Origin: a virus
Direction: 5' to 3' (one strand)
Length of the DNA: 64,000 nucleotides
Virus record (IMG/VR): IMGVR_UViG_3300032116_000032
Coordinates: 62,001 to 126,000 of that record
The notes under the pieces are model-generated. The model saw only the letters and a list, made by a program, of their open reading frames with translations. It made no database searches and had not been told where the DNA came from. A program made the position numbers and the translations under genes. Shown in pieces: positions 43,022 to 61,514 of the stretch; the first letter of the stretch is position 1, and every line of letters begins with the position of its first letter.

Positions 43022-44581
43022 ATGAACACAAGACAATATATTAACTCAAGATTTGAAAAAATTATATCAGAAAACATTAATGAGAAAGCAGATGCTATCT
43101 TACAAAGATTGAATTATGATGAGGAGGCACCATTCAATCCTGCTGGTAAATCATTTGACTATGTACAAGAAGGTATGAAAGAAACTTGTGAACAATGTGG
43201 GTCTGAAATGAATGAAGGTGAATGTTCAGAATGTGGTTACCAAAATGAAGAGATTATGGAACTTGGCGGCATGGATGACGGACACCCGAAATATGGAAAG
43301 ATGAATTTTTCAAAACTTTCAAGAAAAGAAATTGAAAAAATTATGAAAGATATGGACAATATGGAAGATGACGATGAAGAAGAATTCGTAGATTATGATG
43401 ATATAGATTATGGTGATATGGATGATGATGAAGAAGAATATTATCCTGAACTGAGAATACCTCATGACATGCCATCATACAAAACTAAATATAGACATAG
43501 TGATGATGAAGACGATGAATGGGAAGAAGTAGATTTAGACACAGAAACTGATTGGGATCAATTAGAAGAAGATGAATGTACTGAGTGTGGTGATATGTAT
43601 GAAATTGAACTTGATGAAAAATTATATGGAAACCAAACAAAACTTGACAAAAACAAAAACGGTAGAATAGATAGAGAGGATTTCAAAATGTTAAGAAAAC
43701 AACAAGATGAGGAAGAAACTCTTTACGAAGTTGAATTTGAAAAAGATGAGTTTAAAGAAGAAAGTAAACCTGACTTTTTAGATTTAGACAAAGATGGTAA
43801 TAAAAAAGAATCTATGAAGTCTGCAGCTAAAAGTAAAAAAATGAAAGGAAAGGTTACTGAGTCTTTAATTTTTACTGAAAATGAGTTGATTTCACTTATT
43901 GAAAAAACAGTAAATGAAGAAAAAAAATTCAAAATGAGCGAGCCTAAAGGTTATCAAGAGTACGAAAAAGCACACAGAAAAGATAAGAAAGAAAATGAAG
44001 ATTATTTAAAGATGGTTGCTAAAAAAATGACTGATTACTTGAAAGGTATGTCTGACAAAGAGTCTAAATACGAAATGAAAGAAACACAAAAATTCCCAAC
44101 TGAAAATGGTGGTAAAAGAAAAAAATATACTCCATCTGAAGCTGTTGATGAATACATTGATGCATTCTCTTATCCTGGACAAACTAATTTAGTTTATGAT
44201 GAGATCAAACCTAATGATGAAAGAATTGAAAAATATCTGAAAGGTGACAGTACTACAGGAAATGCACAAGTTGATAAAGACGGAAAGGCTTTAGGTAATG
44301 TTGTACCAAGTGAAGTTGGTGAGAAATTCTTCAAAAACTATAAAGATAATCTTTATGGTCAAGAACAACAACAGGCTTCTTATAAGAGACAAACCCAACC
44401 TGTTGATCAGGCTGGTGAGGTAACTGAAAGAGGTTCTTTAAAATCTAAGAAAGGTAAAAAAACCGCACAAAGTGTTTTGAATAAAGTTGAGGAATCTGTT
44501 AATCAAAAAGAAAAACAAAAATTAACAGAAGAATTCCAAAGAATTCAAAATCTAATGGGCTATAACCAAAAGACTCAATAA
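43022..44581 (+). CDS. Acidic putative internal virion protein with zinc-ribbon and EF-hand-like loops
   Basis: A 519-residue protein. The N-terminus MNTRQYINSRFEKIISENIN carries ISE (15-17) and INE (19-21), possible prohead-protease sites. A zinc ribbon follows (C56, C59, C68, C71). Residues 116-162 are a very acidic tract duplicated almost exactly in the gene at 54154. A calcium-loop-like DKNKNGRIDREDF (209-221) and a second DLDKDGNKKE come next. SLIFTENELISLIEKTVNEE near residue 280 looks like an internal copy of the tag type, and the end has EEFQRIQNLMGYN. It follows its own TATTTAT motif. Proposed late, internal-head or scaffold-like protein; no family match. Confidence 0.6.
   Translation: MNTRQYINSRFEKIISENINEKADAILQRLNYDEEAPFNPAGKSFDYVQEGMKETCEQCGSEMNEGECSECGYQNEEIMELGGMDDGHPKYGKMNFSKLSRKEIEKIMKDMDNMEDDDEEEFVDYDDIDYGDMDDDEEEYYPELRIPHDMPSYKTKYRHSDDEDDEWEEVDLDTETDWDQLEEDECTECGDMYEIELDEKLYGNQTKLDKNKNGRIDREDFKMLRKQQDEEETLYEVEFEKDEFKEESKPDFLDLDKDGNKKESMKSAAKSKKMKGKVTESLIFTENELISLIEKTVNEEKKFKMSEPKGYQEYEKAHRKDKKENEDYLKMVAKKMTDYLKGMSDKESKYEMKETQKFPTENGGKRKKYTPSEAVDEYIDAFSYPGQTNLVYDEIKPNDERIEKYLKGDSTTGNAQVDKDGKALGNVVPSEVGEKFFKNYKDNLYGQEQQQASYKRQTQPVDQAGEVTERGSLKSKKGKKTAQSVLNKVEESVNQKEKQKLTEEFQRIQNLMGYNQKTQ
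43369..43509 (+). repeat. Duplicated acidic coding segment, copy A
   Basis: These 141 bases recur at 54243-54395, 10.9 kb away, with no difference except a 12-bp insertion in the second copy. Both copies are in the same reading frame and encode EEEFVDYDDIDYGDMDDD...YPELRIPHDMPSYKTKYRH. Confidence 0.95.
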
Positions 44582-44614
44582 TTTACATTACTTAGTCTTA
44601 TCCTATAATTTTTT

Positions 44615-44631
44615 CATAGTTTTTTACTATG
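44615..44631 (+). promoter_or_regulatory. Hairpin enclosing a start codon
   Basis: CATAGT (44615-44620), a five-T loop, and ACTATG (44626-44631) form a perfect 6-bp inverted repeat. The ATG of the next gene is the end of the right arm, so the hairpin could limit access to the start codon. Confidence 0.4.
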
Positions 44632-45096
44632 GATAATTTTCTAAATTACATTACAAAAAATCTTGACCCTGAAGAGGTGGACATCTGGTTCAGGGTCAAT
44701 AATATAATTCCTGAAAAAATGGAATTGTATTATGACCTGTCTTATAGTCTATTCTTGTTAATCAAAAATACATATCTTGGAGATGAATCTGATAATGGTG
44801 AAACCACAGTAAAGATGAATGACACCGACAACAAAAAACACTTCAACTGGTGTTGGAAAAAAATCATAGATAACTTTGAAAGAGAAAGTATTTCATTTGA
44901 CATGGAAGGAGATCACTACGAGTATTTTTTTACACTATTCAATGAGATATATTACAGACAAAGCAAAGAAGCAATTAGAAATTCAATAGATGTATTTTTC
45001 AATGATCTTTTCAATAGAGAAAAGGCATTCACACAAGTCGATCTTGATTTAATCTTTAATATATACAAAACACTAGATAAAAATCTTAAGGTTTAA
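44629..45096 (+). CDS. Hypothetical protein, 155 residues
   Basis: Begins MDNFLNYITKNLDPEEVDIW. Helical, acidic and rich in aromatic residues, without membrane span or signal peptide. No family recognised. No TATTTAT motif precedes it; its start codon lies in a small hairpin. The following gene is the H1-like protein. Confidence 0.6.
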   Translation: MDNFLNYITKNLDPEEVDIWFRVNNIIPEKMELYYDLSYSLFLLIKNTYLGDESDNGETTVKMNDTDNKKHFNWCWKKIIDNFERESISFDMEGDHYEYFFTLFNEIYYRQSKEAIRNSIDVFFNDLFNREKAFTQVDLDLIFNIYKTLDKNLKV

Positions 45097-45159
45097 ACTT
45101 TACAATAGTTTATTTAGAACCTAATTTATGTGTAATAAACAATAATTTTTTAATTTCAA

Positions 45160-45330
45160 ATGGAAACTTTAGAAAAAATTAAAGAGCTTACTGAGCAACT
45201 AAGTGTTGACGTTAACAAATTCTTTAGCGGAAACAAAAGTGCTGGTACAAGAGCTAGAAAAACCTCACAAGATTTAAAGGCACTTTTACAACAATTAAGA
45301 GGTGAAATTTTAGAGGAGAAAAAAAAGTAA
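45160..45330 (+). CDS. Histone H1-like DNA-binding protein of the Bacteroidota type
   Basis: Read directly as a 56-residue protein: METLEKIKELTEQLSVDVNK, FFSGNKSAGTRARKTSQDLK, ALLQQLRGEILEEKKK. It matches the small H1-like proteins common in Bacteroidota, whose core is K-F-x-x-GN-x-x-AGTR-x-RK-x-x-Q-x-L-K-x-L-x-Q-x-I/L-R-x-E. In hosts these bind and compact DNA. A phage copy could organise phage DNA, shut down host genes or enter the head with the genome. The next gene starts two bases after its stop. Confidence 0.8.
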   Translation: METLEKIKELTEQLSVDVNKFFSGNKSAGTRARKTSQDLKALLQQLRGEILEEKKK

Positions 45331-45331
45331 T

Positions 45332-45526
45332 ATGAGGGAATTGGATATTTTGTGTCTTTTTATTTTTGTATTATCAATAATATTTGTTACTAATCAAATA
45401 TTTAAGATTTCTGCTGAAATATTAAGTGAAAATCCTCAGAAGATAATTTATCGAGGATTTGAAAAAATATCCAATTACTTCTTTGTATCCTACTTAATAA
45501 CTTATATTTTAATCAAATTTTTTTAA
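45332..45526 (+). CDS. Small membrane protein, two spans
   Basis: A 64-residue protein with hydrophobic segments at both ends (ILCLFIFVLSIIFVTNQIF and YFFVSYLITYILIKFF) and a short basic loop between. Coupled to the H1-like gene. Two-span topology would suit a holin-type or host-membrane-modifying protein; nothing specific supports either. Confidence 0.55.
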   Translation: MRELDILCLFIFVLSIIFVTNQIFKISAEILSENPQKIIYRGFEKISNYFFVSYLITYILIKFF

Positions 45527-45530
45527 AAAA

Positions 45531-45959
45531 ATGTATAACGAATTAAAAGACATATTTCAATTTTTAGTGTCAGTTAGAAAATTGAAAACATACTTGACAA
45601 TAGATATTGAATTTCCTGCTAATTGGAAAATACCTAAAAAATATGTGATAGAAGATAAGATTGTTGAGAACGAAAAATTAAATGATAATTTTAGATTTTT
45701 TTCATTTGTTACTGAATTTAACGAAGTAGAAATGAACCAAACAGTTTCTAATATAAAGAAAATAATTTCTTACAATAAAGAAATCGAAATGAAAGAGAAA
45801 TTGTTGAAACAAAAAATAGACGAATTAAAACGAATTTTTGAAAAAGAAAACTTAGACAATTTACAGTCATTAAAATTTGATATTTTAGAAGAAAAATTAG
45901 ATGATGGAGAAGAAATCGTTGACACGAGAGGAACAAATGGTGGATTGGTTGAACAGTGA
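45531..45959 (+). CDS. Hypothetical protein, 142 residues
   Basis: Starts MYNELKDIFQFLVSVRKLKT. An N-terminal alpha/beta-like part (TYLTIDIEFPANWKIPKKYV) is followed by a coiled coil (EMKEKLLKQKIDELKRIFEK). The next small gene begins inside its 3' end in another frame. Function unknown. Confidence 0.55.
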   Translation: MYNELKDIFQFLVSVRKLKTYLTIDIEFPANWKIPKKYVIEDKIVENEKLNDNFRFFSFVTEFNEVEMNQTVSNIKKIISYNKEIEMKEKLLKQKIDELKRIFEKENLDNLQSLKFDILEEKLDDGEEIVDTRGTNGGLVEQ

Positions 45960-47029: not shown

Positions 47030-47947
47030 ATGAATAATGAAAATTTTTACCAAGTTTTGGGGGTCCAAGAAAATGCGACTCAAGATGAAATAAAGAAGGC
47101 ATACCGTAATTTGGCGAAAGAGAATCACCCTGATACAGGTGGTGATGAAGATAAGTTTAAAAAGATTTCGGTTGCTTACGATGTTTTAAGTGATGAATCT
47201 AAAAGAAGAGAATACGATACCAAAAGAAAAAATCCATTTGGTAATTATGATAACTATGAAGATATGTTCTCTAATATGTTTGGTGGTAGAAAACCAAGAC
47301 AAACCGTACACACTACAAACATTACAGTGAATGTTGGTGTTTTAGATTCATATAGGGCAAATAAACATTCTCTTTCATATAGAAGACAAACAATGTGCGA
47401 ACCATGTTCAGGCACTGGCGGCGATAAAAAAACTTGTGGGACTTGTAACGGTTCAGGTGTTGTAGTTAGACAAGTTGGATCAGGATTTTTTGTTCAAGTA
47501 GTACAGATGGCTTGTGATGGATGTGGAGGAATTGGAAGTATAACCATTAACCCATGTTTTATGTGTAGTGGAAGTGGATCAAAACCTGAAATAAAAAACT
47601 TGGACATATCTCTACCTCATGGAATAGATAATGGTCAGTTTTTAAGATTACAAGGAATGGGAGATTTTAAAAATGGAAACTATGGAGATCTTGTTGTTAG
47701 AGTTGATTTGAAACCACAGGATGGATTTGATAAGGTGGGTAATCATTTGGTATATAATGTTTTTATGACACTTGATGAACTTAAACAAGGAAGTTTTAAT
47801 GTCCCACATCCCGATGGTATGATGAATGTTAAGATGCCCAAAAAAGTTGATACATCACTACCATTGAGAGTCAAAGCAAAAGGATTTAGATTAGATACTG
47901 TTGGTGATTTGATGATCAACCAATATGTGAGATTTGATAGGGATTAA
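47030..47947 (+). CDS. dnaJ: DnaJ-type co-chaperone
   Basis: Hsp40 that would recruit and stimulate host DnaK. The 305-residue protein has a J domain with intact HPD (33-35), a short Gly/Phe-poor linker, and a full zinc domain with four CxxCxGxG motifs (CEPCSGTG from C123, [24 protein letters not shown]), then the substrate-binding C-terminal domain ([20 protein letters not shown]). It is shorter than bacterial DnaJ (about 375) because the linker and C-terminal end are trimmed. Its stop overlaps the stop of a small leftward gene. A role in virion assembly or replication-complex remodelling is plausible. Confidence 0.95.
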
Positions 47948-48112: not shown

Positions 48113-48619
48113 TTATAACACAATGGTTTTAATATGAAAATAGTTTTCCAACATTACTTTCTTTTGTTGGGGTTTGTTTTTGTTGAAGAATCTAAGATAA
48201 TTACCATCAAATGAATAAGTACTTGTTGGAATGACATAAACCCTGTCAGTAGACTTTTCAATTATAAATTCTAAATAATCAAAAACTTCTTCATCTTCAT
48301 TGTCCTCATCTCTATAAACAAACTTTAACCTATCACCCAATGAATGATCAGCAAATGATCTAATAATTTTTGGATATTTTAATTCTATAACTTGTGATAA
48401 AATGTCGTTAGGGACCGCAACTCTTTCGTGTGTTGAAGTATCAGAGTCAATAGAATCTAAAATTGATTGTCTTATGAAATCAAAATCTTTATTACCCTTT
48501 CTATCTATTGATTGATGACTTGAAGCATAGAATGAATTACCTCTTGGACTGATATATAATAAATCTTCCCTGTCGGCTTGCTCGGCAATAATTGATCTTA
48601 GAGTTTGAAGCATTTTCAT
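48113..48619 (-). CDS. Putative internal virion protein with IAE-tagged N-terminus
   Basis: The open frame reaches 48826, but a TATTTAT motif lies 6 nt before the ATG at 48619 and the upstream part would overlap the divergent methylase gene, so I start at 48619 (168 residues). The N-terminus MKMLQTLRSIIAEQADRED closely resembles the T4 capsid-targeting peptide MKTYQEFIAE, with IAE at 11-13. The remaining domain (LLYISPRGNSFYASSHQSID, later DRVYVIPTSTYSFDGNYLRF) is unrecognised. Confidence 0.6.
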   Translation of the reverse strand: MKMLQTLRSIIAEQADREDLLYISPRGNSFYASSHQSIDRKGNKDFDFIRQSILDSIDSDTSTHERVAVPNDILSQVIELKYPKIIRSFADHSLGDRLKFVYRDEDNEDEEVFDYLEFIIEKSTDRVYVIPTSTYSFDGNYLRFFNKNKPQQKKVMLENYFHIKTIVL

Positions 48620-48625
48620 ACTAGA

Positions 48626-48687: not shown

Positions 48688-49527
48688 ATGTTAAGTTATA
48701 TCGGAGGTAAGAGTAAAATTGGTAAATGGATTGTTCCATTCTACGACAAAAACATGGAGGTCTATTTAGAGACTTTCGGAGGAATGTTTTGGTGTTTCTA
48801 TAATATGGATCTAAAACAATTCCCAAATCTAAATAAAGTTGTTTATAACGACTTTAACCCACTAAATTATAATCTATTCAAATGCGTCCAAAACCCAAAC
48901 GAGTTGTTAAGGGCGATAAATTCAATTGATTGTCAAAAACAAGGCGTGGATCTTACACCTGAAATATACAAACAACAATTTATCAGCTTTCAGGCTGAAG
49001 TTTTTAATGAAGGTTTCAGCGTAGAACCTGGCGATTATGAAGTTGCCGCTAAGTATGTCTATATTCTAACACAAGTTTTTAGTGGATCAAAACCTGAGAC
49101 ATCTAACTTCATTGACCTTAAAGGGAAATACAAATCAAAATATCTTACATTTAGAGATAAGTTATCTAAACCTGATTGGTTGGATCACTTTTTAAAAATT
49201 ACTGATGTTGAAAACATGGATTTCGCAGATGTAATCAATAAGTATGACTCACCATCAACTTACATTTATTTGGACCCACCGTATTGGAAAACGGAAAATT
49301 ACTACTCCAACCACGACTTTGATCGTCAAGATCATGAACGTTTGGCTAATGTTTTACACGGGGTTCAAGGTAAGTTTTCTTTATCTTACTATGACTTTGA
49401 ATTACTTCACGAATGGTTTCCCGAAGACCAATACACTTGGGTTAAAAAAGAGTTTGCTAAAGCTGCGGCTGCTAAGAAAGGTGAGAAACAAAATATGGGG
49501 GAAGAATTATTGATAATGAATTATTAA
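48688..49527 (+). CDS. dam: DNA adenine-N6 methyltransferase, Dam/D12 class
   Basis: Methylates adenine in DNA, probably to protect phage DNA from host restriction or to mark it. The 279-residue protein has the D12 features in order: SYIGGKSKIGKWI (SAM site), EVYLETFGGMF, VVYNDFNPLNYNLF, and the catalytic DPPY at 196-199 (YIYLDPPYWKTENYYS), with a long helical insert between. The target sequence cannot be told. It is divergent from the leftward IAE-tagged gene. No cognate restriction enzyme is visible. Confidence 0.88.
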   Translation: MLSYIGGKSKIGKWIVPFYDKNMEVYLETFGGMFWCFYNMDLKQFPNLNKVVYNDFNPLNYNLFKCVQNPNELLRAINSIDCQKQGVDLTPEIYKQQFISFQAEVFNEGFSVEPGDYEVAAKYVYILTQVFSGSKPETSNFIDLKGKYKSKYLTFRDKLSKPDWLDHFLKITDVENMDFADVINKYDSPSTYIYLDPPYWKTENYYSNHDFDRQDHERLANVLHGVQGKFSLSYYDFELLHEWFPEDQYTWVKKEFAKAAAAKKGEKQNMGEELLIMNY

Positions 49528-49545
49528 TTTTTTACTGTTTACAAA

Positions 49546-49552
49546 TATTTAT
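49546..49552 (+). promoter_or_regulatory. Putative late promoter motif TATTTAT
   Basis: TATTTAT ends 15 nt before the ATG of the leucine-rich-repeat gene. Confidence 0.55.
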
Positions 49553-49567
49553 TAAATAAAAAATATT

Positions 49568-50950
49568 ATGTCACTTAGGTTCACCAATCTATTAAGAGAT
49601 CTTATTGTTGAAAGTTCAAGATTTCAAGTATTATTCGATAAGTTCGTAAAACCAAAAGAAAGAGGTCAAAGAGGTATTATGCCTTTTGAAACTTTATTTG
49701 CACTTATCGCCGCTGACCCAACTACAAAGGTCCCTGACGGTATGGATATCGATAATGTTAAACCTGAACAGATGGAGAAGGTTAAAATTGGGAAATACGC
49801 TCAATGGTTACTAAAAAACTTTGTCACTCCTAAATTACCTGCTGATCACCCTTTAATGGTTTCAGATCCACAATCAGGTCAATATAAAGCGGCTTTAAAG
49901 GCATTCCAAGATCTTTTTATGGAAGACTTATATAAGGTTACAACAAACCTCCAAAAGTTTGAAAGATTTAAAAATAGATTACCTCAAGAGTATAGAGATA
50001 TTAACAAACTAACTCCTGAGACTTTATTTGATCAAGTTAAAGATTTCAGTTTAGAAAAAACCAAAGCGACTGCCGCTGAGAAAAAAGAAGCATCAACAAC
50101 ATATGCTCACCCTGGTGCTGACATCGTTTATAGAGGTCAAGATTGGACAGTTGCTAAAATATCAGACAAAGGTCCATTAGGTAAAGAAGCCGCATGTTTC
50201 TATGGTGGATCTCATAATGAAGGTAGAAGAGGAGAAACTACTTGGTGTACATCTTCACCTGGACTTTCTTGGTTTGATCGTTATATTGGTAAAGGACCAT
50301 TGTATGTTGTAATTCCAAACAAACCAACATCATTTAAATCTTACGGTAAAGAAGTTGGAGATGTTTCAGGTTTACCGGCAAACAGATACCAATTCCACTT
50401 CCCTGATAATCAGTATATGGATGCGGATGACAGACCAATCAATTTGATTGAATTCTTAAACACAAATGAAGAAGGACTAAAACAATTCTTCAAACCTGAG
50501 TTCATGAAGTCATTAGCCGGAGATAAAGGTGAAAAAGTTGTGATTGATTATCCAGGTGATTCGGCATCAAAATTCATTGCACTTTATGGTTTTGACGAAT
50601 TCTTTGCCACTCTTCCTCAGTCATTGAAAAGACTTACATTCAAAAACACATCAAGAGACAAAATTTCATTGAATATTCCAAACGACATTGGAAGGTTCAA
50701 ACAGTTGAACGCAATCAACTTTGTTGGATGTGTTGCAACTATACCTGAAGCAATTTGTCAATTACAAAATTTACAATATTTATCTTTAGTTAATAACCCA
50801 GACCTTCAAAAATTACCTGAATGTGTTGGGGATATGCAAAACCTTATGGTACTAAACCTTGGAGGATCCGATCCTAAGAAAGTTCTACCTGAATCTGTAT
50901 TCAGAAGAGCTGAAACAGACGAAGACTTCAACTTATTTACACACTCTTAA
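49568..50950 (+). CDS. Leucine-rich-repeat protein with IVE-tagged N-terminus
   Basis: A 460-residue protein. The N-terminus MSLRFTNLLRDLIVESSRF has IVE at 13-15, a possible prohead-protease site. A helical region follows, then a compact domain with WTVAKISDKGPLGKEAACF and ETTWCTSSPGLSWFDRYI plus GKGPLYVVI, a pattern I have the impression recurs in environmental phages but cannot name. Residues about 345-450 are leucine-rich repeats (LPQSLKRLTFKN; LQNLQYLSLVNNPDLQKLPE; MQNLMVLNLGG). LRRs bind proteins, so this could be an injected effector or head component. Confidence 0.65.
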   Translation: MSLRFTNLLRDLIVESSRFQVLFDKFVKPKERGQRGIMPFETLFALIAADPTTKVPDGMDIDNVKPEQMEKVKIGKYAQWLLKNFVTPKLPADHPLMVSDPQSGQYKAALKAFQDLFMEDLYKVTTNLQKFERFKNRLPQEYRDINKLTPETLFDQVKDFSLEKTKATAAEKKEASTTYAHPGADIVYRGQDWTVAKISDKGPLGKEAACFYGGSHNEGRRGETTWCTSSPGLSWFDRYIGKGPLYVVIPNKPTSFKSYGKEVGDVSGLPANRYQFHFPDNQYMDADDRPINLIEFLNTNEEGLKQFFKPEFMKSLAGDKGEKVVIDYPGDSASKFIALYGFDEFFATLPQSLKRLTFKNTSRDKISLNIPNDIGRFKQLNAINFVGCVATIPEAICQLQNLQYLSLVNNPDLQKLPECVGDMQNLMVLNLGGSDPKKVLPESVFRRAETDEDFNLFTHS

Positions 50951-50952
50951 AA

Positions 50953-51642
50953 ATGAATAGAAGATTAATAATTAATGAAGAAGAAAAAAGAAGAATTTTA
51001 AATCTTCATGAAAGTAGAAGATCTAAAGAATTAGGTTTTTTATTTGAAGACGATAATGCAAACAATGAAGTACTGCTTCAAGGTACGGATAAGGATTATG
51101 ATTATAAAAAAGTGGGAGATAAATATTATTTCAAGTTAAAGGATAACCCTACAAGTGTCGCGGCTAAAGGATACAAAACACAAGGAAAATTTGTAGATTG
51201 GACAGAAGCGACTAATCAAAAAGCTATAGATAAAATTTCACAACTACCTACATTATCAACAGTAGCACAATTTCAGGGACCTGGTGAAGTTGACGGAAGT
51301 GATGAGACATTTGACGCACCACAAACCGCATCTACAACGGCGCAAACACCTACAGTGGCGTCAACAACATCTACAACCGCAGCAACACCCACAAACGCAA
51401 CTACAACTACAAACGCAACAACACCAGCACCTACGTCAAAAAACCCTGATGTTTTAGCAGACTTAAAAACTGCATCACAAATCAGACAAGAATTTAGACA
51501 AGGTAATAGAGATAAAAACAAAGCGATGAGACAATACAATCAAATGGTTAATAAATATAACAAATTAAAAAGTAAAATGAGTCCACAAGATAATTCGGCT
51601 TATCTACAAGCAATTGGCCAATTGAAACAACAAATAGGATAA
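50953..51642 (+). CDS. Putative internal protein with INE/LHE-tagged N-terminus and Thr/Ala linker
   Basis: A 229-residue protein beginning MNRRLIINEEEKRRILNLHE, in which INE (7-9) and LHE (18-20) fit the L/I-x-E rule. A small domain (KDYDYKKVGDKYYFKLKDNP) is followed by a low-complexity Thr/Ala/Pro stretch (residues about 120-165) and a basic helical C-terminus (EFRQGNRDKNKAMRQYNQMV). It starts three bases after the previous stop, so it shares that gene's promoter. A terminator follows. Confidence 0.6.
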   Translation: MNRRLIINEEEKRRILNLHESRRSKELGFLFEDDNANNEVLLQGTDKDYDYKKVGDKYYFKLKDNPTSVAAKGYKTQGKFVDWTEATNQKAIDKISQLPTLSTVAQFQGPGEVDGSDETFDAPQTASTTAQTPTVASTTSTTAATPTNATTTTNATTPAPTSKNPDVLADLKTASQIRQEFRQGNRDKNKAMRQYNQMVNKYNKLKSKMSPQDNSAYLQAIGQLKQQIG

Positions 51643-51718: not shown

Positions 51719-52093
51719 ATGAAAATCATCATAACAGAAGAACAGTATAATCTAATCAACGAAACCTATAGAAGAGATCGTTTTGATGCTGAGTACGCTG
51801 ATGAATATCCAAAGTATAAGAAGTTGTTTTTAAAGACAATATCTAAAGATGTCAAAGGTTGGGGTGAATGGCCAGGATCAATTTATCTGATGACTGAAAA
51901 CGGAGACCCTTTATTTGTATATAGAATACCATCAAAAACCGTATATTATGATTATTCAATAGATAAAGAGATGGAAGAATATATTCCTTATCACATTGTT
52001 TCGAGACACTTGAAAAACGCAGTTTACGATTACTTCAAAGGACTTTTTCCTGATGTTGAAATAAAAGAGGTAAGTGGGGCTAATATTGTATAG
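51719..52093 (+). CDS. MKIIITE-tagged protein 1
   Basis: A 124-residue protein beginning MKIIITEEQYNLINETYRRD. The tag (MKIII-T/S-x-x-Q-Y/K-x-x-L/I-x-E) is shared by four consecutive genes whose remaining sequences differ; here ITE (5-7) and INE (13-15) are possible protease sites. The body has SIYLMTENGDPLFVYRIP, and a helical end with VSRHLKNAVYDYFKGLFPDV. No family recognised. First of four genes behind one TATTTAT motif. Confidence 0.65.
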   Translation: MKIIITEEQYNLINETYRRDRFDAEYADEYPKYKKLFLKTISKDVKGWGEWPGSIYLMTENGDPLFVYRIPSKTVYYDYSIDKEMEEYIPYHIVSRHLKNAVYDYFKGLFPDVEIKEVSGANIV

Positions 52094-52095: not shown

Positions 52096-52653
52096 ATGAA
52101 AATAATAATATCTAATAATCAATATAGTCTTTTGAAGGAAGTGCATGTTGCTATTAAAAACATTGAGGGTCTTAAAAAGTATTGGAGAAACCAACAAAAA
52201 AAAGGTCAACAAATTAGATTTAATAAAGAAGATTTAGATTTTTGGGGTATTACAACTAGACAGGAAAAATATTATGCTCAAACAGCATTTCAAGAATTAG
52301 TTGGAGATGAGGTTTTTACTGAAAAAGTTATTAAAAAGTTAATCGGAAAAACATTTTCAACGAAAGACTTTGATGATAGAATCACTGGTGGATATGATTT
52401 CGAGTGGGTGATTGATAATATGGAATATAGAGATTATGATTTTTATTTATATGGAAAAACATTACCGGGAGGAACTGTTACTCTTATGGATGGTAGACAC
52501 ATATCTTTAAGTGAAGGAATAAATCATGAAGATTTAGGTTGGGAAATACAAGAAGAAATTAAAGATGTTGTCCAAGACTGTATGGATGAAATAATTTTAC
52601 CTGTCACAGGATATGAAGTGATAGTACCATATTTAATTATATCTGAAGAATGA
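52096..52653 (+). CDS. MKIIITE-tagged protein 2
   Basis: A 185-residue protein beginning MKIIISNNQYSLLKEVHVAI; LKE at 13-15 is the possible cleavage site. The body includes FWGITTRQEKYYAQTAFQEL and an acidic segment with VTLMDGRHISLSEGINHEDL. Starts two bases after the previous stop, and its own stop overlaps the next ATG (ATGA). Function unknown. Confidence 0.65.
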   Translation: MKIIISNNQYSLLKEVHVAIKNIEGLKKYWRNQQKKGQQIRFNKEDLDFWGITTRQEKYYAQTAFQELVGDEVFTEKVIKKLIGKTFSTKDFDDRITGGYDFEWVIDNMEYRDYDFYLYGKTLPGGTVTLMDGRHISLSEGINHEDLGWEIQEEIKDVVQDCMDEIILPVTGYEVIVPYLIISEE

Positions 52654-52976
52654 AAATAATAATTACAGAATCACAGAAAGAAAAACTAATGAATGATTTT
52701 ATGAAATCACTCGTAGATGATACCTTAGATGAAAACAAACCTTCTTATGTTGATTATTATATTGTTATTTGGGATAAAACTGCTGTTTGGAACATTGATA
52801 ACGAGCCGTTTATTGAATATGATAAATCTGATGGTAGATTGTGGATATCAAAAAAATATTTAAACAACTTAGAATCTTGGTTCCCAATCAAAAAAGAAAA
52901 AGTGTTAGATATGATTAAAAACTCTTTTGAAAATAAATTTAATGTTGATGTAAAATATATCAAAGCGGAGTCATGA
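52650..52976 (+). CDS. MKIIITE-tagged protein 3
   Basis: A 108-residue protein beginning MKIIITESQKEKLMNDFMKS; ITE (5-7) is present but the second site is lost. The body (YYIVIWDKTAVWNIDNEPFI, then WFPIKKEKVLDMIKNSF) has the same size and strand-strand-helix feel as tagged protein 1, so they may be distant relatives. ATGA overlaps on both sides. Confidence 0.65.
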   Translation: MKIIITESQKEKLMNDFMKSLVDDTLDENKPSYVDYYIVIWDKTAVWNIDNEPFIEYDKSDGRLWISKKYLNNLESWFPIKKEKVLDMIKNSFENKFNVDVKYIKAES

Positions 52977-53560
52977 AAATAATAATTACAGAAAAACAAT
53001 ATAATAAGTTAACTGAAGATAAACTTCAGAAACTTTGTTATACAGTATGGAACCAACAAAAAAAGAGAGGTGAAGAACCTTATATTGATGATATAATATA
53101 CGACATTACAGATATTAGAAAAAACACAAATGAAGACTTTCAAATCATTAGACCCATTTGGTATAGATACAACGGTGGATTTAATAACTTATTTGAAAAA
53201 CTTAAAAATGAAATTGACGAAAAAATATTTGACCTTACAAGTGATTGGGGTAATCTTGATACAAGAGTAGAAGTTATTGAAGTAAGTCAGTTTGGTAGAT
53301 TAGGTGAAGATTTTGGAGTAGATATATTTGTAAATGTAGATCCAAATGGAACCATGGATTTCCAAATGTATGAAGAAGGAACCGATAACGAAATTCAAGT
53401 TAACGATACGATTGAGGCGGCTTATTTTGAAGCTCAATCCAATTATGAAGGAAGTGATCTTCTTGGTTATTTAAGAGGGGAAGTTTATGACCTTTTTTAT
53501 AAAAAGTTAGAAAAATACGGAATTCCAATTGACGTGGATGTTGATCTAAAAGAATTTTAA
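52973..53560 (+). CDS. MKIIITE-tagged protein 4
   Basis: A 195-residue protein beginning MKIIITEKQYNKLTEDKLQK; ITE (5-7) and LTE (13-15) fit the L/I-x-E rule. A basic helical part (CYTVWNQQKKRGEEPYIDDI) is followed by an acidic alpha/beta domain (TRVEVIEVSQFGRLGEDFGV, VDIFVNVDPNGTMDFQMYEE). Last gene of the tag cluster. Function unknown. Confidence 0.65.
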   Translation: MKIIITEKQYNKLTEDKLQKLCYTVWNQQKKRGEEPYIDDIIYDITDIRKNTNEDFQIIRPIWYRYNGGFNNLFEKLKNEIDEKIFDLTSDWGNLDTRVEVIEVSQFGRLGEDFGVDIFVNVDPNGTMDFQMYEEGTDNEIQVNDTIEAAYFEAQSNYEGSDLLGYLRGEVYDLFYKKLEKYGIPIDVDVDLKEF

Positions 53561-54153: not shown

Positions 54154-54612
54154 ATGAAAAAACAAATACTTGAAGAGCTTAATGATATTAAGTATCTTTT
54201 TAATTACAATAGAGGTAAAATTATTTCAGAACAGGAACAATTTGACGATGAAGAAGAATTCGTAGATTATGATGATATAGATTATGGTGATATGGATGAT
54301 GATATGGATGATGATGAAGAAGAATATTATCCTGAACTGAGAATACCTCATGACATGCCATCATACAAAACTAAATATAGACATAGTGATGATGATATGG
54401 AATTGGACGAAGAAATGGATCTTCCTGTAATGTTACCAGGTACAAAAGAAAAAGAAAGAACTAAGGTAACACCTGGAACTAAACCGAGAACAAAACCTAA
54501 TACTCCATATAGCCCAAAACCAGGACCAAAACCGGATCCTAAGGCTAGAAATAGAAAAGATGAGATGCCTGATTGGTTAACCTTTGATGAACTTGGAATT
54601 GATTTTGAATAA
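54154..54612 (+). CDS. Acidic tagged protein sharing a duplicated segment with the 43022 product
   Basis: A 152-residue protein. The N-terminus MKKQILEELNDIKYLFNYNR continues GKIISEQEQ, giving ISE at 24-26. Residues about 30-80 are the acidic tract copied from (or into) the gene at 43022, with an extra DMDD unit. The rest is Pro/Lys-rich (PGTKPRTKPNTPYSPKPGPK) and ends DEMPDWLTFDELGIDFE. So tag and body seem to be assembled from modules. One base separates it from the next gene. Function unknown; possibly a head-internal protein. Confidence 0.6.
   Translation: MKKQILEELNDIKYLFNYNRGKIISEQEQFDDEEEFVDYDDIDYGDMDDDMDDDEEEYYPELRIPHDMPSYKTKYRHSDDDMELDEEMDLPVMLPGTKEKERTKVTPGTKPRTKPNTPYSPKPGPKPDPKARNRKDEMPDWLTFDELGIDFE
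54243..54395 (+). repeat. Duplicated acidic coding segment, copy B
   Basis: Second copy of the 43369-43509 segment, identical except for a 12-bp insertion that itself repeats neighbouring bases (GATGATATGGAT). Reading frame is kept. Confidence 0.95.
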
Positions 54613-54613: not shown

Positions 54614-55849
54614 ATGAAAAATTTAAGAAAAAAATTATACACTGAAGGTTTACCAAAATCTGAATTTGTTAGACTATTGGAAGCCCCAATTGACTATGAA
54701 GGTCCTGAAAGAATGGCTGGAGATGTTGAGGGAAAAATCACCGGTAAAAAAACCCCCTACCATAATTTTCCTGCTATCCCTAATATGGATAAAGACTTTG
54801 TTGAATTAATATCTTCCAAGAGATTCAAAGACTCAGTTGACAAAGTTAGAATGGCTATGGGTGATACAAGAATTATACAAGGTCAAAATGCTTTAATGCA
54901 GTTAATGGGAACTGTTGGTCAAGCGATGCAAAGACTTGTTATGATTCAGTCACAAAACAAAAAACAACTTGAAGATTTGGCTATTGAACTTGTAAAAAAA
55001 GAAATGGGTATTCCTGAAGGGGCAATGCAGTTCAAGGCTGAACTAATGACACAACCTATGGGTGCCGCAGAAGGGATGAAAGATGAAGCCGAAATGCCAA
55101 GTGAAGAAGAAATTGAAGAGTTTATGGGTGACGTTGAAAACTTCAACTTAGAAAGAGCTAAAAGAAGATTTATTAACTCATTAATTCAAGGAGCGGCTTT
55201 CAAAGGAGGTCACATGTATAATCTTGTAAGAAATGAAATCAATGATATCAACCCACAATTAATGAACCTTTATGCTGTTACCCAATCTTTGATGGAACAT
55301 GCTTATTGGATCTTTCCTGATATGGAAGGAATGGCAGGTGGTGGCGGTGGTCAAATGGGTCAGTCAGAATATGATGATGAGACAGATCCACCAACAGTAA
55401 AAGCTAGAGCTGTTACATTCCCACTTCTTGTACACGAGTTAGTTAAAGGTGTTTATGAGGTATTTGGAACTCATGGTTTACCTGATGACCCAAAACAAAG
55501 AGAAATGGTATTAAATGCTGAAGATTCACTTCCTGCTGAGATTTGGGACTCTCGTTTAGGACCAATTTTTTGGGAGAAGTTCGTTTCAACTTACCCTATG
55601 GAATTGTTCGATGATGATATGAAACATATCCAACATTATTTATTCATGCGTTTTTCAGCTTTAAACGCAGAAGAATTTATGAGTTTAGCTAAAAAGATCC
55701 TAAGTGGGGATCCAAAAGGACAACAAATAATTCAAAGAATGGTTGATGATATCGTTAAAGATTTAAAAGACAGAGAATATAAAGATGCCATGGGTGATGA
55801 TGATGACGAAGACTACGGCGATGTTGATCTAAGTGATTTGGGACTTTAA
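54614..55849 (+). CDS. Large putative virion-associated protein
   Basis: About 411 residues from ATG 54614; the frame is open from 54584 but that start lies inside the previous gene. The N-terminus MKNLRKKLYTEGLPKSEFVR is followed by LLE (21-23), a possible protease site. The body is helical with Met-rich parts (NALMQLMGTVGQAMQRLVMI), a Gly-rich turn and a C-terminal part with LPAEIWDSRLGPIFWEKFVS, ending in a run of Asp. No family recognised. Its stop is in the loop of a terminator. Confidence 0.6.
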   Translation: MKNLRKKLYTEGLPKSEFVRLLEAPIDYEGPERMAGDVEGKITGKKTPYHNFPAIPNMDKDFVELISSKRFKDSVDKVRMAMGDTRIIQGQNALMQLMGTVGQAMQRLVMIQSQNKKQLEDLAIELVKKEMGIPEGAMQFKAELMTQPMGAAEGMKDEAEMPSEEEIEEFMGDVENFNLERAKRRFINSLIQGAAFKGGHMYNLVRNEINDINPQLMNLYAVTQSLMEHAYWIFPDMEGMAGGGGGQMGQSEYDDETDPPTVKARAVTFPLLVHELVKGVYEVFGTHGLPDDPKQREMVLNAEDSLPAEIWDSRLGPIFWEKFVSTYPMELFDDDMKHIQHYLFMRFSALNAEEFMSLAKKILSGDPKGQQIIQRMVDDIVKDLKDREYKDAMGDDDDEDYGDVDLSDLGL

Positions 55850-57175: not shown

Positions 57176-57520
57176 ATGGAAAAATTCAAACACGAAAAAA
57201 GACTTTTAGATTTCCTCATAGAGGAAAATAAAATATTGTATTCAACAATCCAACTAACGGGTTTTATTGAACTAACACCTGAAAGTTTACTTGAAAAACC
57301 AAGATTTGAGAATTATTTATTGGACGGTATGCAATATACTGATGGGGTTTCATATTCTGATGGAATATTTATTTATGATAACAATATTTACATATATTTA
57401 TCTAAAACTGACCCATTAGTCTCTTCATTTTCTTGTAAGATATATTATCCTATAAATAGAAAAAAAGACGTTGAGTTCTTTATATTAAACCTAAAAAAAT
57501 TAAAAAAAGATGGAAATTAG
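57176..57520 (+). CDS. Hypothetical protein, 114 residues
   Basis: Begins MEKFKHEKRLLDFLIEENKI. Mixed alpha/beta sequence with YDNNIYIYLSKTDPLVSSF and a Lys-rich end. Its last codons overlap the thioredoxin start. No family recognised. Confidence 0.55.
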   Translation: MEKFKHEKRLLDFLIEENKILYSTIQLTGFIELTPESLLEKPRFENYLLDGMQYTDGVSYSDGIFIYDNNIYIYLSKTDPLVSSFSCKIYYPINRKKDVEFFILNLKKLKKDGN

Positions 57521-57824
57521 TAGTGTTGAATTACAACAAAAAATAAATGCTGGTGAAAAACTTGTGGTTGAGTTTTGGGCTGAGTGGTGTGGACCATGTA
57601 AAATGATGAAACCAATTTTTGAAAGAGTTGCATCTTCAAACGAAAGTGAAGTCCAAATGTATACACTTAATATTGATAATAACAGAGAAGTCGCTTTAAG
57701 CCTTGGTATCAGAAGTATACCAACTGTAAAGATGTTTAATTCTGGTGAAGTGGTTGAGACAAAAGTGGGTATGATGAATGAAGGACAGATAAAAGAAATG
57801 GTAAGTGAATTGATCAATGGATAA
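57510..57824 (+). CDS. trxA: Thioredoxin
   Basis: Dithiol reductant. The 104-residue protein has the classic active site WAEWCGPCKMMKP and the cis-Pro loop GIRSIPTVKMF. In phages thioredoxin can re-reduce ribonucleotide reductase, whose C-terminal cysteine pair is intact in this genome, or act as a polymerase processivity factor. It overlaps the next, glutaredoxin-like, gene by 8 nt, so both reductants are co-expressed. Confidence 0.93.
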   Translation: MEISSVELQQKINAGEKLVVEFWAEWCGPCKMMKPIFERVASSNESEVQMYTLNIDNNREVALSLGIRSIPTVKMFNSGEVVETKVGMMNEGQIKEMVSELING

Positions 57825-58104
57825 AATTGCAGTTGTGTTCACAATGAAGAGTTGTCCTCATTGTCACACATTTAAAAAAATGTTAGAAGAGGCTGACATT
57901 GACTTTATCGATAGAGATATTGATGAATATGAAGAAGAATACGATATGTTTGTTGAAGTTACAGGAAATGATTTTGTACCGGCATTCATGTTAATTGAGA
58001 ATCCCGAAAGTGAAACTCCTACATCAAATTTATATGCTCCTGATCGAGATTTTGAGGATATAGATGAAGGACTAAAAATAATTAAAGAATTTTACGAAAG
58101 ATAA
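57817..58104 (+). CDS. Glutaredoxin-like protein
   Basis: A 95-residue protein with the CPHC active site in FTMKSCPHCHTFKKMLEEAD, a FIDRDIDEYEEEYDMFVEVT segment and VPAFML around the cis-Pro. It is more acidic than bacterial glutaredoxins and lacks a clear GSH-binding GG pair, so it may take electrons from thioredoxin or act on NrdA directly. Ends at a bidirectional terminator. Confidence 0.8.
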   Translation: MDKIAVVFTMKSCPHCHTFKKMLEEADIDFIDRDIDEYEEEYDMFVEVTGNDFVPAFMLIENPESETPTSNLYAPDRDFEDIDEGLKIIKEFYER

Positions 58105-58132: not shown

Positions 58133-58828
58133 TTATATCAATATTATGTCTTTTAGTCTATCTTGAATCAAGTATGGTTTGTCCAATGTCTGATCAGTGA
58201 TATCTTTTGTAAAGTCGTAGTTAGACAGCCTTTCTTTGAATTCAGTAAGATCCATATCAAAACAATCTAAAACAAGACTTTCAATAGTTTTCTTTGGTAT
58301 TTGAGAATCACAAATCACTTTAATTCTATAATCTTCATCTTCATTTAAATCACTTGAGTAATGAAAATATAATTTATCAATACCCAACAAAGAATACATT
58401 TGATTGAAGATATAATGTGAGTAATATAATATTCCTCTACCACAACCTAAACTATGCCCATAAGGAAACTCTGATGAAATGTTTATTTCTGAAATGGGGT
58501 CTAATTCCTTAACGTACAAAGATTTATTAACTGTGATCCATGCTCTTGGAAAATCTGTGATTTCTTGTTCGTACTTAATGATATCAATAATGTTAAGACT
58601 TTCTTTATTGAGTGATTTAAATAATTCCTTGTTTGATTCTATAAATTCTATTTTAAGTTCGTTAAGGTTTAGAACATTACTACTTATAGTTTGACCGTTA
58701 ACAACCACAAAGTTTTCACAATCTGTTACTTGAATTATTGTATTTTCTGATTTGTTGAATTTTGACAGGATGTAGTCTGCAAATAGATTTACAAAATACC
58801 GTCTTGTGTTTTTTTCTAATTTTCTCAT
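58133..58828 (-). CDS. Hypothetical protein, leftward, 231 residues
   Basis: Begins MRKLEKNTRRYFVNLFADYI. Mixed alpha/beta sequence with NFVVVNGQTISSNVLNLNEL and a middle part EFPYGHSLGCGRGILYYSHY. No family recognised. The ATG lies in the right arm of an 11-bp inverted repeat. Probably transcribed with the leftward gene before it, 50 nt upstream. Confidence 0.6.
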   Translation of the reverse strand: MRKLEKNTRRYFVNLFADYILSKFNKSENTIIQVTDCENFVVVNGQTISSNVLNLNELKIEFIESNKELFKSLNKESLNIIDIIKYEQEITDFPRAWITVNKSLYVKELDPISEINISSEFPYGHSLGCGRGILYYSHYIFNQMYSLLGIDKLYFHYSSDLNEDEDYRIKVICDSQIPKKTIESLVLDCFDMDLTEFKERLSNYDFTKDITDQTLDKPYLIQDRLKDIILI

Positions 58829-58858
58829 ATTCTTGGTTTTGTATAATGAATATGAGAA
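58822..58858 (-). promoter_or_regulatory. Inverted repeat enclosing a start codon
   Basis: TTCTCATATTC (58822-58832) and GAATATGAGAA (58848-58858) are perfect inverted repeats around a 15-nt loop. On the minus-strand RNA the ATG is in the second arm, so the hairpin could hold translation back. The repeat might instead be a protein-binding operator. Confidence 0.45.
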
Positions 58859-58878
58859 TTAAATGAAACTATAAAGAG

Positions 58879-59994
58879 TTAAATATAATCTAAAAACATT
58901 TCGTTTATGTTTCTTCTTGTTCTGTCCCAATCAGGATATTCAGGGATTCTAATATCAATACATTCTACATCATCATTAGAAATCATATTATTTATAAGTT
59001 CCGTATATCCACCAAAATATTCTAAAAATGAATCACTCCAAGTTCCGCCTTTATTATTTTCTAAAAATGTTGTTATATTTCCAATAAAGTCTCTGATTTT
59101 AATATATTGGTCGTATTTAGTTTTTTCACCGACCTTTCTTGGAATCTCATCAATACGACCCTCGAAGTATTCATTAAGACCATTATAAACAGCTTCATAA
59201 ACTTCATCTTCATATGCTGTATTTTCAGAGCTGTAATAAACACTTCTCAATTCTTGACCAATTTCTTGTAAATCTTTTTTGAAAAGTTCGTTTGATGCGT
59301 CACTATCTTTTAATAGGTCGTTTAAATCTTCAGGTCTTATTCTAAAATATCCTTCTGTCCCTTGTATTTCAGATAAATGTTCAAAAAAGTCTGAATCATA
59401 ATCTTCTAATGAAAGTTCTTGATTTCCAATTTTTTTATAAATAACATCTTTAAGATGTGCTAAATTAGAATCATCTAAAACATCTACTGTATCGTGTGGT
59501 GACATACTAGAATCATAATACCAATCGTGACCTAAACCTTCTTCACTTAAAATTAGTTTTGCAACATATCTAGGGCCACTATCACTTCTTCTACTACCAC
59601 TACAAAAATATTCACTTAACTCTTCACTATCTCTTAATTTTAGATAAAAACCACCATTTCTAATTTCAACATCAGTTATTAGATTGTTAATTATAAAATA
59701 AACTGTGTCTTCGTAGTTGTCTTCTAAACCTTTTAAAAGTAATATATTTTTTAATTCTTCGGGTGCGTCTTCATAACTAAGATTACCTAAAACACCATTT
59801 TCATCTAAAAAATTAATTAGTTCACTGTCCCAATTACGATAACCTACTTGACCTAAATCTAATTCATCTAAAAGACCGTATTTTTTAACAAACTTAAAGA
59901 ATGTTATTAAGTCATTAAAATACGGCTCAATGTCGTCATCAAAATCACCATAATTAAATGAATTAACTAATTGTCTTGCTCTATCTAAACTCAT
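58879..59994 (-). CDS. Acidic hypothetical protein, leftward, 371 residues
   Basis: Begins MSLDRARQLVNSFNYGDFDD. Very acidic and helical, with repeated D/E/L/Y patterns and no membrane span. The segment IPEYPDWDRTRRNINEMFLD closes the protein. Its N-terminus does not have a clear L/I-x-E site. Two TATTTAT motifs lie upstream, 5 and 16 nt from the ATG, which suggests strong late expression. No family recognised. Confidence 0.6.
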   Translation of the reverse strand: MSLDRARQLVNSFNYGDFDDDIEPYFNDLITFFKFVKKYGLLDELDLGQVGYRNWDSELINFLDENGVLGNLSYEDAPEELKNILLLKGLEDNYEDTVYFIINNLITDVEIRNGGFYLKLRDSEELSEYFCSGSRRSDSGPRYVAKLILSEEGLGHDWYYDSSMSPHDTVDVLDDSNLAHLKDVIYKKIGNQELSLEDYDSDFFEHLSEIQGTEGYFRIRPEDLNDLLKDSDASNELFKKDLQEIGQELRSVYYSSENTAYEDEVYEAVYNGLNEYFEGRIDEIPRKVGEKTKYDQYIKIRDFIGNITTFLENNKGGTWSDSFLEYFGGYTELINNMISNDDVECIDIRIPEYPDWDRTRRNINEMFLDYI

Positions 59995-59999
59995 ATGGT

Positions 60000-60006
60000 A
60001 TAAATA
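60000..60006 (-). promoter_or_regulatory. Putative late promoter motif TATTTAT, leftward, proximal copy
   Basis: Ends 5 nt before the ATG of the leftward 371-residue gene. Confidence 0.55.
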
Positions 60007-60010
60007 TCTT

Positions 60011-60017
60011 ATAAATA
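60011..60017 (-). promoter_or_regulatory. Putative late promoter motif TATTTAT, leftward, distal copy
   Basis: Second copy 16 nt before the same ATG, overlapping the T tract of a terminator. Confidence 0.5.
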
Positions 60018-60044
60018 AAAAAGGTGTCCCAATCGGAACACCTT
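60012..60044 (-). terminator. Leftward terminator after the small MGCGC gene
   Basis: On the minus strand AAGGTGT (60044-60038) pairs with ACACCTT (60027-60021), extended by GG/CC pairs, then TTTTTATT. Confidence 0.75.
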
Positions 60045-60064
60045 ATCTTGATGATACGCAAATA

Positions 60065-60202
60065 TTATTTTCTGTAATATTTGTTAATGATTTTTTTTAC
60101 TGACTCTTGAACATTAGTTTTATTTTGAGTCGTATTTGCACCTTGTTGTGTTTGTGTTTGAGGTTGTTGTGCCTGTTGTTTGTTTTTACATCCGCAGCCC
60201 AT
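60065..60202 (-). CDS. Small Cys- and Gln-rich protein, 45 residues
   Basis: Read directly on the minus strand: MGCGCKNKQQAQQPQTQTQQ, then GANTTQNKTNVQESVKKIIN KYYRK. The MGCGC start could bind metal or be membrane-anchored, but there is no signal peptide. The middle is a Gln/Thr linker, the end a short helix. A leftward terminator follows, and TATTTAG at 60205-60211 lies just before the ATG. Function unknown. Confidence 0.55.
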   Translation of the reverse strand: MGCGCKNKQQAQQPQTQTQQGANTTQNKTNVQESVKKIINKYYRK

Positions 60203-60296
60203 AACTAAATATTTTTATCGGTTTATTTATCTATAAATAGTATCTAAAACAAGTTTAATTCAGAATAATTAAAAATCAATTATTTTTATTTTGTTA

Positions 60297-60303
60297 TATT
60301 TAT
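60297..60303 (+). promoter_or_regulatory. Putative late promoter motif TATTTAT
   Basis: Ends 5 nt before the ATG at 60309 and rules out the earlier in-frame TTG at 60291 as the start, because that start would place the promoter inside the gene. Confidence 0.6.
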
Positions 60304-60308
60304 CAAGT

Positions 60309-61514
60309 ATGAGAGACTTCATTAAAAATTTCTTATTAGAACAAGATGAGAATCTTGTTACACTAACTCCTGATCAATATATCGAAACATTAGAAGATGT
60401 TGGTGGAATTGCGGCGAGAGTTTCAAATCTAAAACCTTATCGTGGTAAAGGTATTGTTATTAACGGTGATTTAGATCTTAGAAAATTTAAAACTGTTGGA
60501 CCACTTACAGGAATTGTGAGAGTAATGGGTAGGTTAGATATATCCAATACGAATGTTCCAAATCTTGATGGTGTTACCGTAGATAGATATGTTAGTAATT
60601 GGGGATCAACAATGCATACAATTAAATTAAAACAAGAAAGAAATAAAAAACTTTCAGAATTGGCCGATTATAGAGAAAATGATGAGTGGAATACAGAAAA
60701 CAAAGACGATGATTCTGAAAGAACTGAAGCTTTATATGAATTTTTGGTTGAAGAAGGTATACCTACTTTATATGAAGACGACAATGGTGAAGAAGTAGAA
60801 GAAGACAAATATTTTATTTATCCTAATAGCACTGGAACTTACGGTATTGGAAAACAATACGAATGGTTAGGTAGTGATACTTTACAACCTGATACATATG
60901 ATGTTTATACTCAAGATGAGTTAGATATTGCCGCTAGAAGATATGTTGAAAATGCTATTGATGACATGGGTTATGAGGCATTTACAAGTTGGGTTTGGGA
61001 TCAAGCACTTGATAGAGGACAGTGGGAAAGTTGGTTAGAAGATTTTTATGAAGATATAATTAGAGATGATCCTGAAAACTATGATATAGGACTTGAATTA
61101 TCTACAAATCAACAACATCAAGTTAATCAATTAAAAAAAACTATAGAAAATCTAAATAATAAATTAAAAAGTGAGGAATTGTCTGACGAAGAATACGAAA
61201 ACATCGAAAGAAAAATTGAAGGTTTAGAAGAGACGATAGAAGAAATTATAGAAGATCCACAAGGTGGTTATGATGAAAGTTCCATACAGAATGAAATCAA
61301 TGATAGAGTTAATGAATATGTTGATGATATTGATGATTTTATTAAACACTACGGATATGAAAAAAGTTTTATAATGGATTTTGTTGATTTAGATGAGGTT
61401 ACGGATATTGTCGTAAATAGTGATGGATATGGTAATCTATTAAACTCTTATGATGGAGAAATGTTTGAAACACAGGTAAACGGTGACTGGTATTTTGTAA
61501 TGAGGGCTAGTTAG
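60309..61514 (+). CDS. Putative internal virion protein with LLE-tagged N-terminus
   Basis: About 401 residues from ATG 60309. The N-terminus MRDFIKNFLLEQDENLVTLT has LLE at 9-11, the same length and form as T4 capsid-targeting peptides. A repeat-like domain follows (VINGDLDLRKFKTVGPLTGI, VRVMGRLDISNTNVPNLDGV), then a charged part and a long coiled coil (VNQLKKTIENLNNKLKSEEL). The C-terminus is acidic and Tyr-rich (YGNLLNSYDGEMFETQVNGD). No family recognised by name. Confidence 0.6.
   Translation: MRDFIKNFLLEQDENLVTLTPDQYIETLEDVGGIAARVSNLKPYRGKGIVINGDLDLRKFKTVGPLTGIVRVMGRLDISNTNVPNLDGVTVDRYVSNWGSTMHTIKLKQERNKKLSELADYRENDEWNTENKDDDSERTEALYEFLVEEGIPTLYEDDNGEEVEEDKYFIYPNSTGTYGIGKQYEWLGSDTLQPDTYDVYTQDELDIAARRYVENAIDDMGYEAFTSWVWDQALDRGQWESWLEDFYEDIIRDDPENYDIGLELSTNQQHQVNQLKKTIENLNNKLKSEELSDEEYENIERKIEGLEETIEEIIEDPQGGYDESSIQNEINDRVNEYVDDIDDFIKHYGYEKSFIMDFVDLDEVTDIVVNSDGYGNLLNSYDGEMFETQVNGDWYFVMRAS

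Follow-up and report, generated by a model that had tools for sequence, protein, structure and literature searches.

Exchangeable N-terminal tags ending in L/I-x-E are candidate capsid-targeting propeptides of many proteins in immuto-like jumbo phages

Introduction

In phage T4, the prohead protease gp21 cuts after L/I-x-E, and internal proteins are brought to the core by leaders of 10-19 residues (PMC9026906). The T4 proteins Ip1-3 have only the leader in common, and the type IV restriction enzymes that they block are distinct (PMC12373910). Here we consider a 64,000-nucleotide stretch of viral DNA (hereafter the window), which comprises bases 62001-126000 of a linear virus record of 136,112 bases (IMG/VR IMGVR_UViG_3300032116_000032). 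Between 43 and 62 kb of the window, many otherwise unrelated genes begin with a short segment, or tag, that ends in L/I-x-E. Sequence comparisons lead us to regard these tags as very probably removable capsid-targeting propeptides of the T4 style. Each genome of the immuto-like jumbo phages would encode dozens of proteins that carry them.

The core of the record is T4-like and encodes DNA polymerase, helicases, sheath, tube, baseplate, ssb and UvsX. Among annotated phages, it is closest to Flavobacterium phage immuto, Microcystis phage Mel-JY01 and an uncultured phage of 484 kb, and from relatives only, the host of the window phage would appear to belong to the Bacteroidota. A further IMG/VR record of 272,576 bases, here called G001, shares 105 of 140 genes with the record in an order that is mostly kept but reversed, and the leucine-rich repeat (LRR) gene found in the window has a counterpart there with 91% identity.

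Recurring tag families with a conserved end

The tag families were chosen without use of the cut motif. There are at least 119 stretches that match tag A (MKIIITExQY..LxE) in a pattern scan of IMG/VR and, among the matches listed, 134 proteins fall into at least 45 body clusters. In the pooled set, tag A precedes at least 71 body clusters, and [LI]xE is found at residues 10-26 in 56 of 71, compared with 16 of 71 further in. There are also small proteins (L087, L100, L104 and L105) that have the head MKIIITExQY and no terminal L/I-x-E, several of which go on in an Arg-rich sequence.

Tag B (MKKIIRLTESDLxRIVKRVIxE) has at least 148 matches in an IMG/VR scan, and those listed are all located at the first residues of an open reading frame. 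The listed matches represent at least 97 unrelated body clusters, and [LIV]xE stands at the tag end in 97 of 97 versus 5 of 97 for a control window. In the pooled set, the cut motif is present at the end of tag B in 25/28 (control 2/27), of tag C (MKELIRHILKEE, MNLQEQIRRILKEE) in 25/34 (control 7/34) and of tag D (MENFDLKKFLVENKLTxNSKLLxE) in 12/12 (control 2/12). When 104 tagged proteins are aligned, the consensus retains essentially the tag only. Moreover, codons within tag A differ synonymously between copies, which suggests that selection acts on the peptide.

Tag sharing was also assessed by counting non-homologous gene pairs with similar residues 2-25 (score of at least 35) in comparison with internal windows of the proteins. 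There are 88 such pairs involving 54 genes in G001, versus 4-5 pairs in internal windows. The corresponding values are 17 pairs among 22 genes versus 1-2 for immuto, and 7 pairs among 8 genes versus 1-3 for the window's own record. As controls, crAss001, a Bacteroides phage with another head type, exhibits no such excess (2 pairs versus 0-1), and a 50-kb T4 segment holding the ip genes yields 1 pair versus 0-1.

Tag exchange at the glutamate

Homologous proteins can carry different tags, and in several such swaps homology breaks right after the Glu of the motif (the predicted cut is marked by a slash). The window gene starting at position 54614 reads LLE/APIDYEGPERM, and its L079 counterpart has MGNLTEKELDRIVNKIINE (ending in IINE) followed by APIDYDGPERM. 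For the gene starting at 60309, FLLE/QDENLV in the window is paired with VLNE/QDEEWV, and the homolog at L108 has the different tag MNLKNIIRRVLNE ahead of QDEEWVDVSPEYY. A DHH-like protein is found as LILE/SGIRGIK and as LINE/SGIRDIN, and a further swap pairs LINE/ETDGIT with LILE/ATEGLD. In immuto-like phages, the gene directly after gp21 has IILE/SDETQLG or ILKE/SDENQLG. The pairs L027/L046 and L161/L162 are among the swaps with the junction at Glu. These swaps and junctions, together with the presence of gp21 and gp23 in relatives, support the T4-like capsid targeting that an earlier note on this DNA had put forward.

Among the tagged proteins of immuto, one cut is predicted after MENFDLKKFLVENKLTTNSKILKE, to be followed by N, and another after LLLE in a deoxyribonucleotidase. 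The latter protein is annotated as such at immuto 109856-110455 (L008), where a tag-like extension, MKKVMGNLADLLLE, is located ahead of the enzyme body.

Head protease and capsid protein

The immuto protease matches T4 gp21 (PDB 5jbl, E 3.2e-24) and its capsid protein matches gp23. Of 49 capsid proteins examined in the group, 48 have an [LIVMF]xE site behind a conserved ENQ motif, and alignment of gp23 places T4 SFLTE/AEIGG in register with G001 FLINE/ASSDG, immuto QIVSE/ANVTG and Mel-JY01 QLISE/ANRTG. In G001, a head module at 180-192 kb includes terminase, portal, gp21-type protease, scaffold and gp23. In immuto-like phages, tags D and E adjoin gp21 and stand behind the portal.

A search of the 136-kb record for terminase, portal, prohead protease, scaffold and major capsid protein found none of them. 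The record is therefore most likely an incomplete genome, and a head module like that of G001 is probably located in the unassembled part. The Pfam S78 model has no match in the window's own record; the S77 model has none there nor in any control genome and is therefore uninformative. The earlier note had named a prohead protease and an L/I-x-E site in the capsid protein as checks on its proposal. Both are missing from the window's own fragmentary record, where gp23 was not found, and both are present in relatives: the capsid site lies at the T4 position, and a gp21-type protease is encoded by G001 and by 23 of the 41 relatives' records searched, 24 of which have gp23. In the 26 records that tag A or the LRR gene retrieved, gp21 is present in 11 and gp23 in 12. 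The sole mismatch between the two is G003, in which gp23 lies at the very end of the contig. Among 15 tag B records, both genes are found in the same 12. The portal is absent too from the gp21-less records tested (8 of the first set and 3 of the tag B set). Plausibly, most gp21-less records are fragments, though one is 274 kb long.

Tagged genes of the window

The N-termini named in the earlier note are all present in the sequence, and as tags they are borne out by tag sharing and by conservation of the cut-site Glu, which was counted among the homologs of each window gene. This residue is invariant in the homologs of 7 of 11 listed genes and mostly kept in the other 4, while the preceding residues vary. 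The tagged window genes described below are on the plus strand unless stated otherwise.

The first gene (40621..41214) is located in a late cluster after an amidase gene. Its N-terminal region extends to LTE at residues 37-39 (nucleotides 40621-40737), and this candidate, listed earlier with a 'perhaps', is strengthened by conservation of E39 in 21/21 homologs with a hydrophobic P3 residue in 20/21. The gene at 43022..44581 encodes an acidic 519-residue protein with the tag MNTRQYINSRFEKIISE at residues 1-17 (nucleotides 43022-43072). E17 is present in 18/18 homologs, with identity down to 33% and differing tag sequences. A leftward gene on the minus strand (48113..48622) starts with MMKMLQTLRSIIAE (nucleotides 48622-48581); E14 is kept in 5/5 homologs, and no Pfam family matched the protein.

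The gene at 49568..50950 encodes the LRR protein, whose tag MSLRFTNLLRDLIVE occupies residues 1-15 (nucleotides 49568-49612) with E15 kept in 27/27 homologs. In its structure model, the predicted local distance difference test (pLDDT) score is under 50 for an N-terminal segment that covers exactly residues 1-15 and stops at the predicted cut. The C-terminal LRR region matches Pfam LRR_14 below the cut-off and PDB 4tzh in a Foldseek search (E 1.4e-5). The next gene (50953..51642) has a tag of the MNRRLIINEEEKRRILNLHE type, and the cut is likely to be at LFE-32 or LHE-20. The LHE at residues 18-20 had been proposed earlier and has its Glu kept in 6/8 homologs, and E32 of LFE scores slightly higher with 7/8. 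Similar tag heads occur at position 129607 of the record and at 20008 and 216669 of G001.

There are four consecutive genes with tag A. The first (51719..52093) has MKIIITEEQYNLINE at nucleotides 51719-51763, and E15 is found in 21/21 homologs versus 13/21 for E7 of an earlier ITE. The second (52096..52653) has MKIIISNNQYSLLKE at nucleotides 52096-52140, with E15 in 18/22 homologs and a hydrophobic P3 in 22/22. The third (52650..52976), absent from the earlier list, has the head MKIIITESQ extended to LDE at residues 26-28 (nucleotides 52650-52733), and E28 is kept in 7/7 homologs. The fourth (52973..53560) has MKIIITEKQYNKLTE at nucleotides 52973-53017, with E15 in 25/30 homologs and a hydrophobic P3 in 29/30.

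An acidic protein (54154..54612) carries MKKQILEELNDIKYLFNYNRGKIISE (nucleotides 54154-54231), and its E26 is present in 22/22 homologs. A helical protein (54614..55849) begins with MKNLRKKLYTEGLPKSEFVRLLE, then APIDY (nucleotides 54614-54682 for the tag), and E23 is kept in 13/18 homologs. Its model has pLDDT 51-59 for residues 1-30 and 84-90 for residues 31-80, and a fold search gave no match. The last gene (60309..61514) has the tag MRDFIKNFLLE (nucleotides 60309-60341) and a body that starts with QDENLVTLTPDQY; E11 is present in 15/15 homologs despite other tags. Further tags are found outside the window at record positions 127772, 129607, 130622, 132021, 53440 and 35991.

Several untagged genes adjoin the tagged ones. 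By eye, these encode a DnaJ-like protein with zinc-finger repeats (47030-47947) and thioredoxin- and glutaredoxin-like proteins (57510-57824 and 57817-58104). A 377-residue protein encoded at 62504-63637 resembles glutamine synthetase by eye.

Probable late expression and candidate cargo bodies

The motif TATTTAT (often TATTTATA), mostly located 10-40 nucleotides before start codons, precedes 36 genes in the record versus 2.9 expected and 96 genes in G001 versus 12.4 expected. It is found upstream of the tagged genes at 43022, 51719, 54154 and 60309, and also before terminase, portal, protease, scaffold, sheath and tube. The earlier note's placing of TATTTAT ahead of tagged genes or their operons holds, and the motif is a property of late and structural genes generally rather than of tagged genes alone. 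TATTTAT stands ahead of 20 of 30 family-tagged genes compared with 71 of 307 others (p 2e-6). From its distribution, it looks like a late promoter of this phage group, and because tagged and head genes have it in common, the tagged genes appear to be of the late class. A protein encoded at 37812-38612 resembles the sigma-70 family by eye and is conserved in G001 (48930-49730); it is a candidate reader of TATTTAT promoters.

The bodies behind the tags in the window comprise the LRR protein, acidic proteins and unknowns. Zinc-ribbon and EF-hand families give only weak Pfam matches to the 43022 protein, below the cut-off. Across the group, bodies include a phage lysozyme, an ECF sigma factor, an HD domain and a cell-wall hydrolase. 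A tagged M78 (IrrE-type) peptidase matches right at the cut-off score, and the DHH body of L108 has a weak Pfam match and none in PDB. An ECF-type sigma factor with a tag A N-terminus (L097:2357-2932, and L063) is a candidate virion-packaged sigma factor. We rejected L022 as an ADP-ribosyltransferase, an assignment that found no support in Pfam or PDB.

Alternative explanations

Capsid targeting with removal by a gp21-type protease agrees with the tag exchange, the junctions at Glu, the poor order of tags in models and the presence of tagged genes within the head cassette. Several observations weigh against this conclusion. Among 75 body families with N-terminal homology breaks, the coincidence of break and motif is only modest: with the best pair taken for each family, 8 of 75 coincide versus a null mean of 2.25 and a maximum of 8 in 500, although this statistic is diluted by many untagged structural genes with variable starts. 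At the tag end, L/I-x-E is lacking in 15 of the 71 tag A body families, and the ATA codon is commoner in tags than in the background. The labels are also unlike those of T4 except at their end. The window's own record is without head genes, so we infer the protease of the window phage from its relatives. Finally, the literature searched gave no proteomics or N-terminal sequencing of these phages, and no paper with virion proteomics of immuto or Mel-JY01.

It is unlikely, but worth weighing, that the labels are signals used in head assembly by structural or core proteins only, namely scaffold and inner-head components that contribute to a very large prohead, with injection or action on the host in few if any cases. 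Tags D and E do occur on genes between portal and major capsid protein, the protein encoded at 54614 is all-helical and lacks a fold match, with homologs near the head module in several relatives, and several tagged proteins are acidic and of low complexity, like T4 gp67. However, the ECF sigma factor, HD, M78 peptidase, lysozyme and DHH-like bodies have no known structural role in heads, and the diversity behind the two main tag families (71 and 97 clusters) is unlike a set of core components.

It is less probable still that the tags steer proteins elsewhere, such as to a replication compartment, the membrane or a late-protein complex, with L/I-x-E serving as part of a binding helix that is not cut. 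The roughly one-fifth of tag A body families without the motif would suit such an arrangement, as would the fact that cleavage is only deduced. Yet the Glu is retained while its surroundings change, in several swaps it is exactly the residue behind which homology breaks, and the capsid protein has a propeptide of its own with this motif at the end.

Chance occurrence of L/I-x-E in N-termini rich in Leu, Ile and Glu, with shared tags arising from recent duplication of the 5' gene end, is refuted for the whole set by the tag B counts, Glu conservation, synonymous codon differences and the absence of an excess in crAss001, although individual genes may still be accidental. The bare motif count, on which the earlier note leaned, is close to chance and weak evidence alone: [LI]xE ends at residues 9-32 in 15 of 28 genes at 43-62 kb, compared with 11.5+-2.3 in shuffles (p 0.095) and 8.9+-1.9 in internal windows (p 0.002).

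Proposed mechanism and implications

For capsid targeting, we propose the following course of events. Late-type genes bear N-terminal labels of about 11-39 residues that belong to a few recurring families, end in a conserved [L/I/V]-x-E and are exchangeable between unrelated bodies. In relatives, judging from the sequences, such labels are also present on genes within the portal-protease-scaffold-capsid protein cassette, and a gp21-type protease is accompanied by a gp23 with the same motif as its own predicted maturation site. As the prohead forms, the label would bind to its scaffold core and gp21 would cut after the Glu, whereupon the mature protein would remain in the head with the DNA and enter the host upon infection. 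We infer such cleavage, packaging and injection for the tagged proteins. By analogy with T4 Ip1-3 and Alt, the cargo would be active during the first minutes after infection. Ip1-3 offer a model for this possible action, and the cargo could likewise counter host defences.

If the labels act as in T4, the set of injected proteins of a huge, mostly uncultured phage group could be read from sequence. Any protein with such an N-terminus would be a candidate early effector, giving hundreds of candidates for anti-defence or take-over functions, and new short tags would be available to load foreign proteins into phage heads. We tentatively entertain the broader idea, which may or may not hold, of a general address-label system by which a large, widespread group of jumbo phages would make almost any gene head cargo through a few interchangeable, self-removing labels, so that each virion delivers dozens of proteins that seize the cell before expression of phage genes begins. 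The delivered set would then include a sigma factor, nucleotide hydrolases, peptidases and cell-wall enzymes. A literature search with partial coverage gave no paper that matched the tag strings tried and none that describes such a system in these phages.

Comparison with known systems

Immuto (NC_055915) and Mel-JY01 (PP395634) are only distant kin of the window phage. They have the gp21-type protease, gp23 and similar tags that are absent from their annotation, and those of immuto are mainly of types D and E. Mel-JY01 also has long runs of untagged proteins of 140-200 residues at 111-128 kb and 136-143 kb (L012), which resemble another accessory array.

The inner-body or ejection proteins of phiKZ and SPN3US (PMC5694885, PMC9026906) offer a parallel among jumbo phages, where many proteins are packed in the head and are cut after Glu by a distant gp21 homolog. 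The phiKZ motif is S/A-x-E and its propeptides are mostly long, whereas here P3 is L/I/V in both the tags and the capsid protein site, and the tags are short.

The closest likeness is to the leaders of T4 Ip1-3 and Alt (PMC9026906, PMC12373910), which are also short N-terminal propeptides ending in L/I-x-E ahead of unrelated mature bodies. In both systems a gp21-type protease goes together with a gp23 that has a corresponding cut site, here seen in relatives. The two systems differ in that there are dozens of tagged genes per genome here and a handful in T4. There are at least five tag families here of about 11-39 residues, unlike those of T4, which have 10-19 residues. Recognisable enzymes and a sigma factor are found among the putative cargo here, and the phages involved are kin to a Flavobacterium phage, with records of up to about 350 kb.

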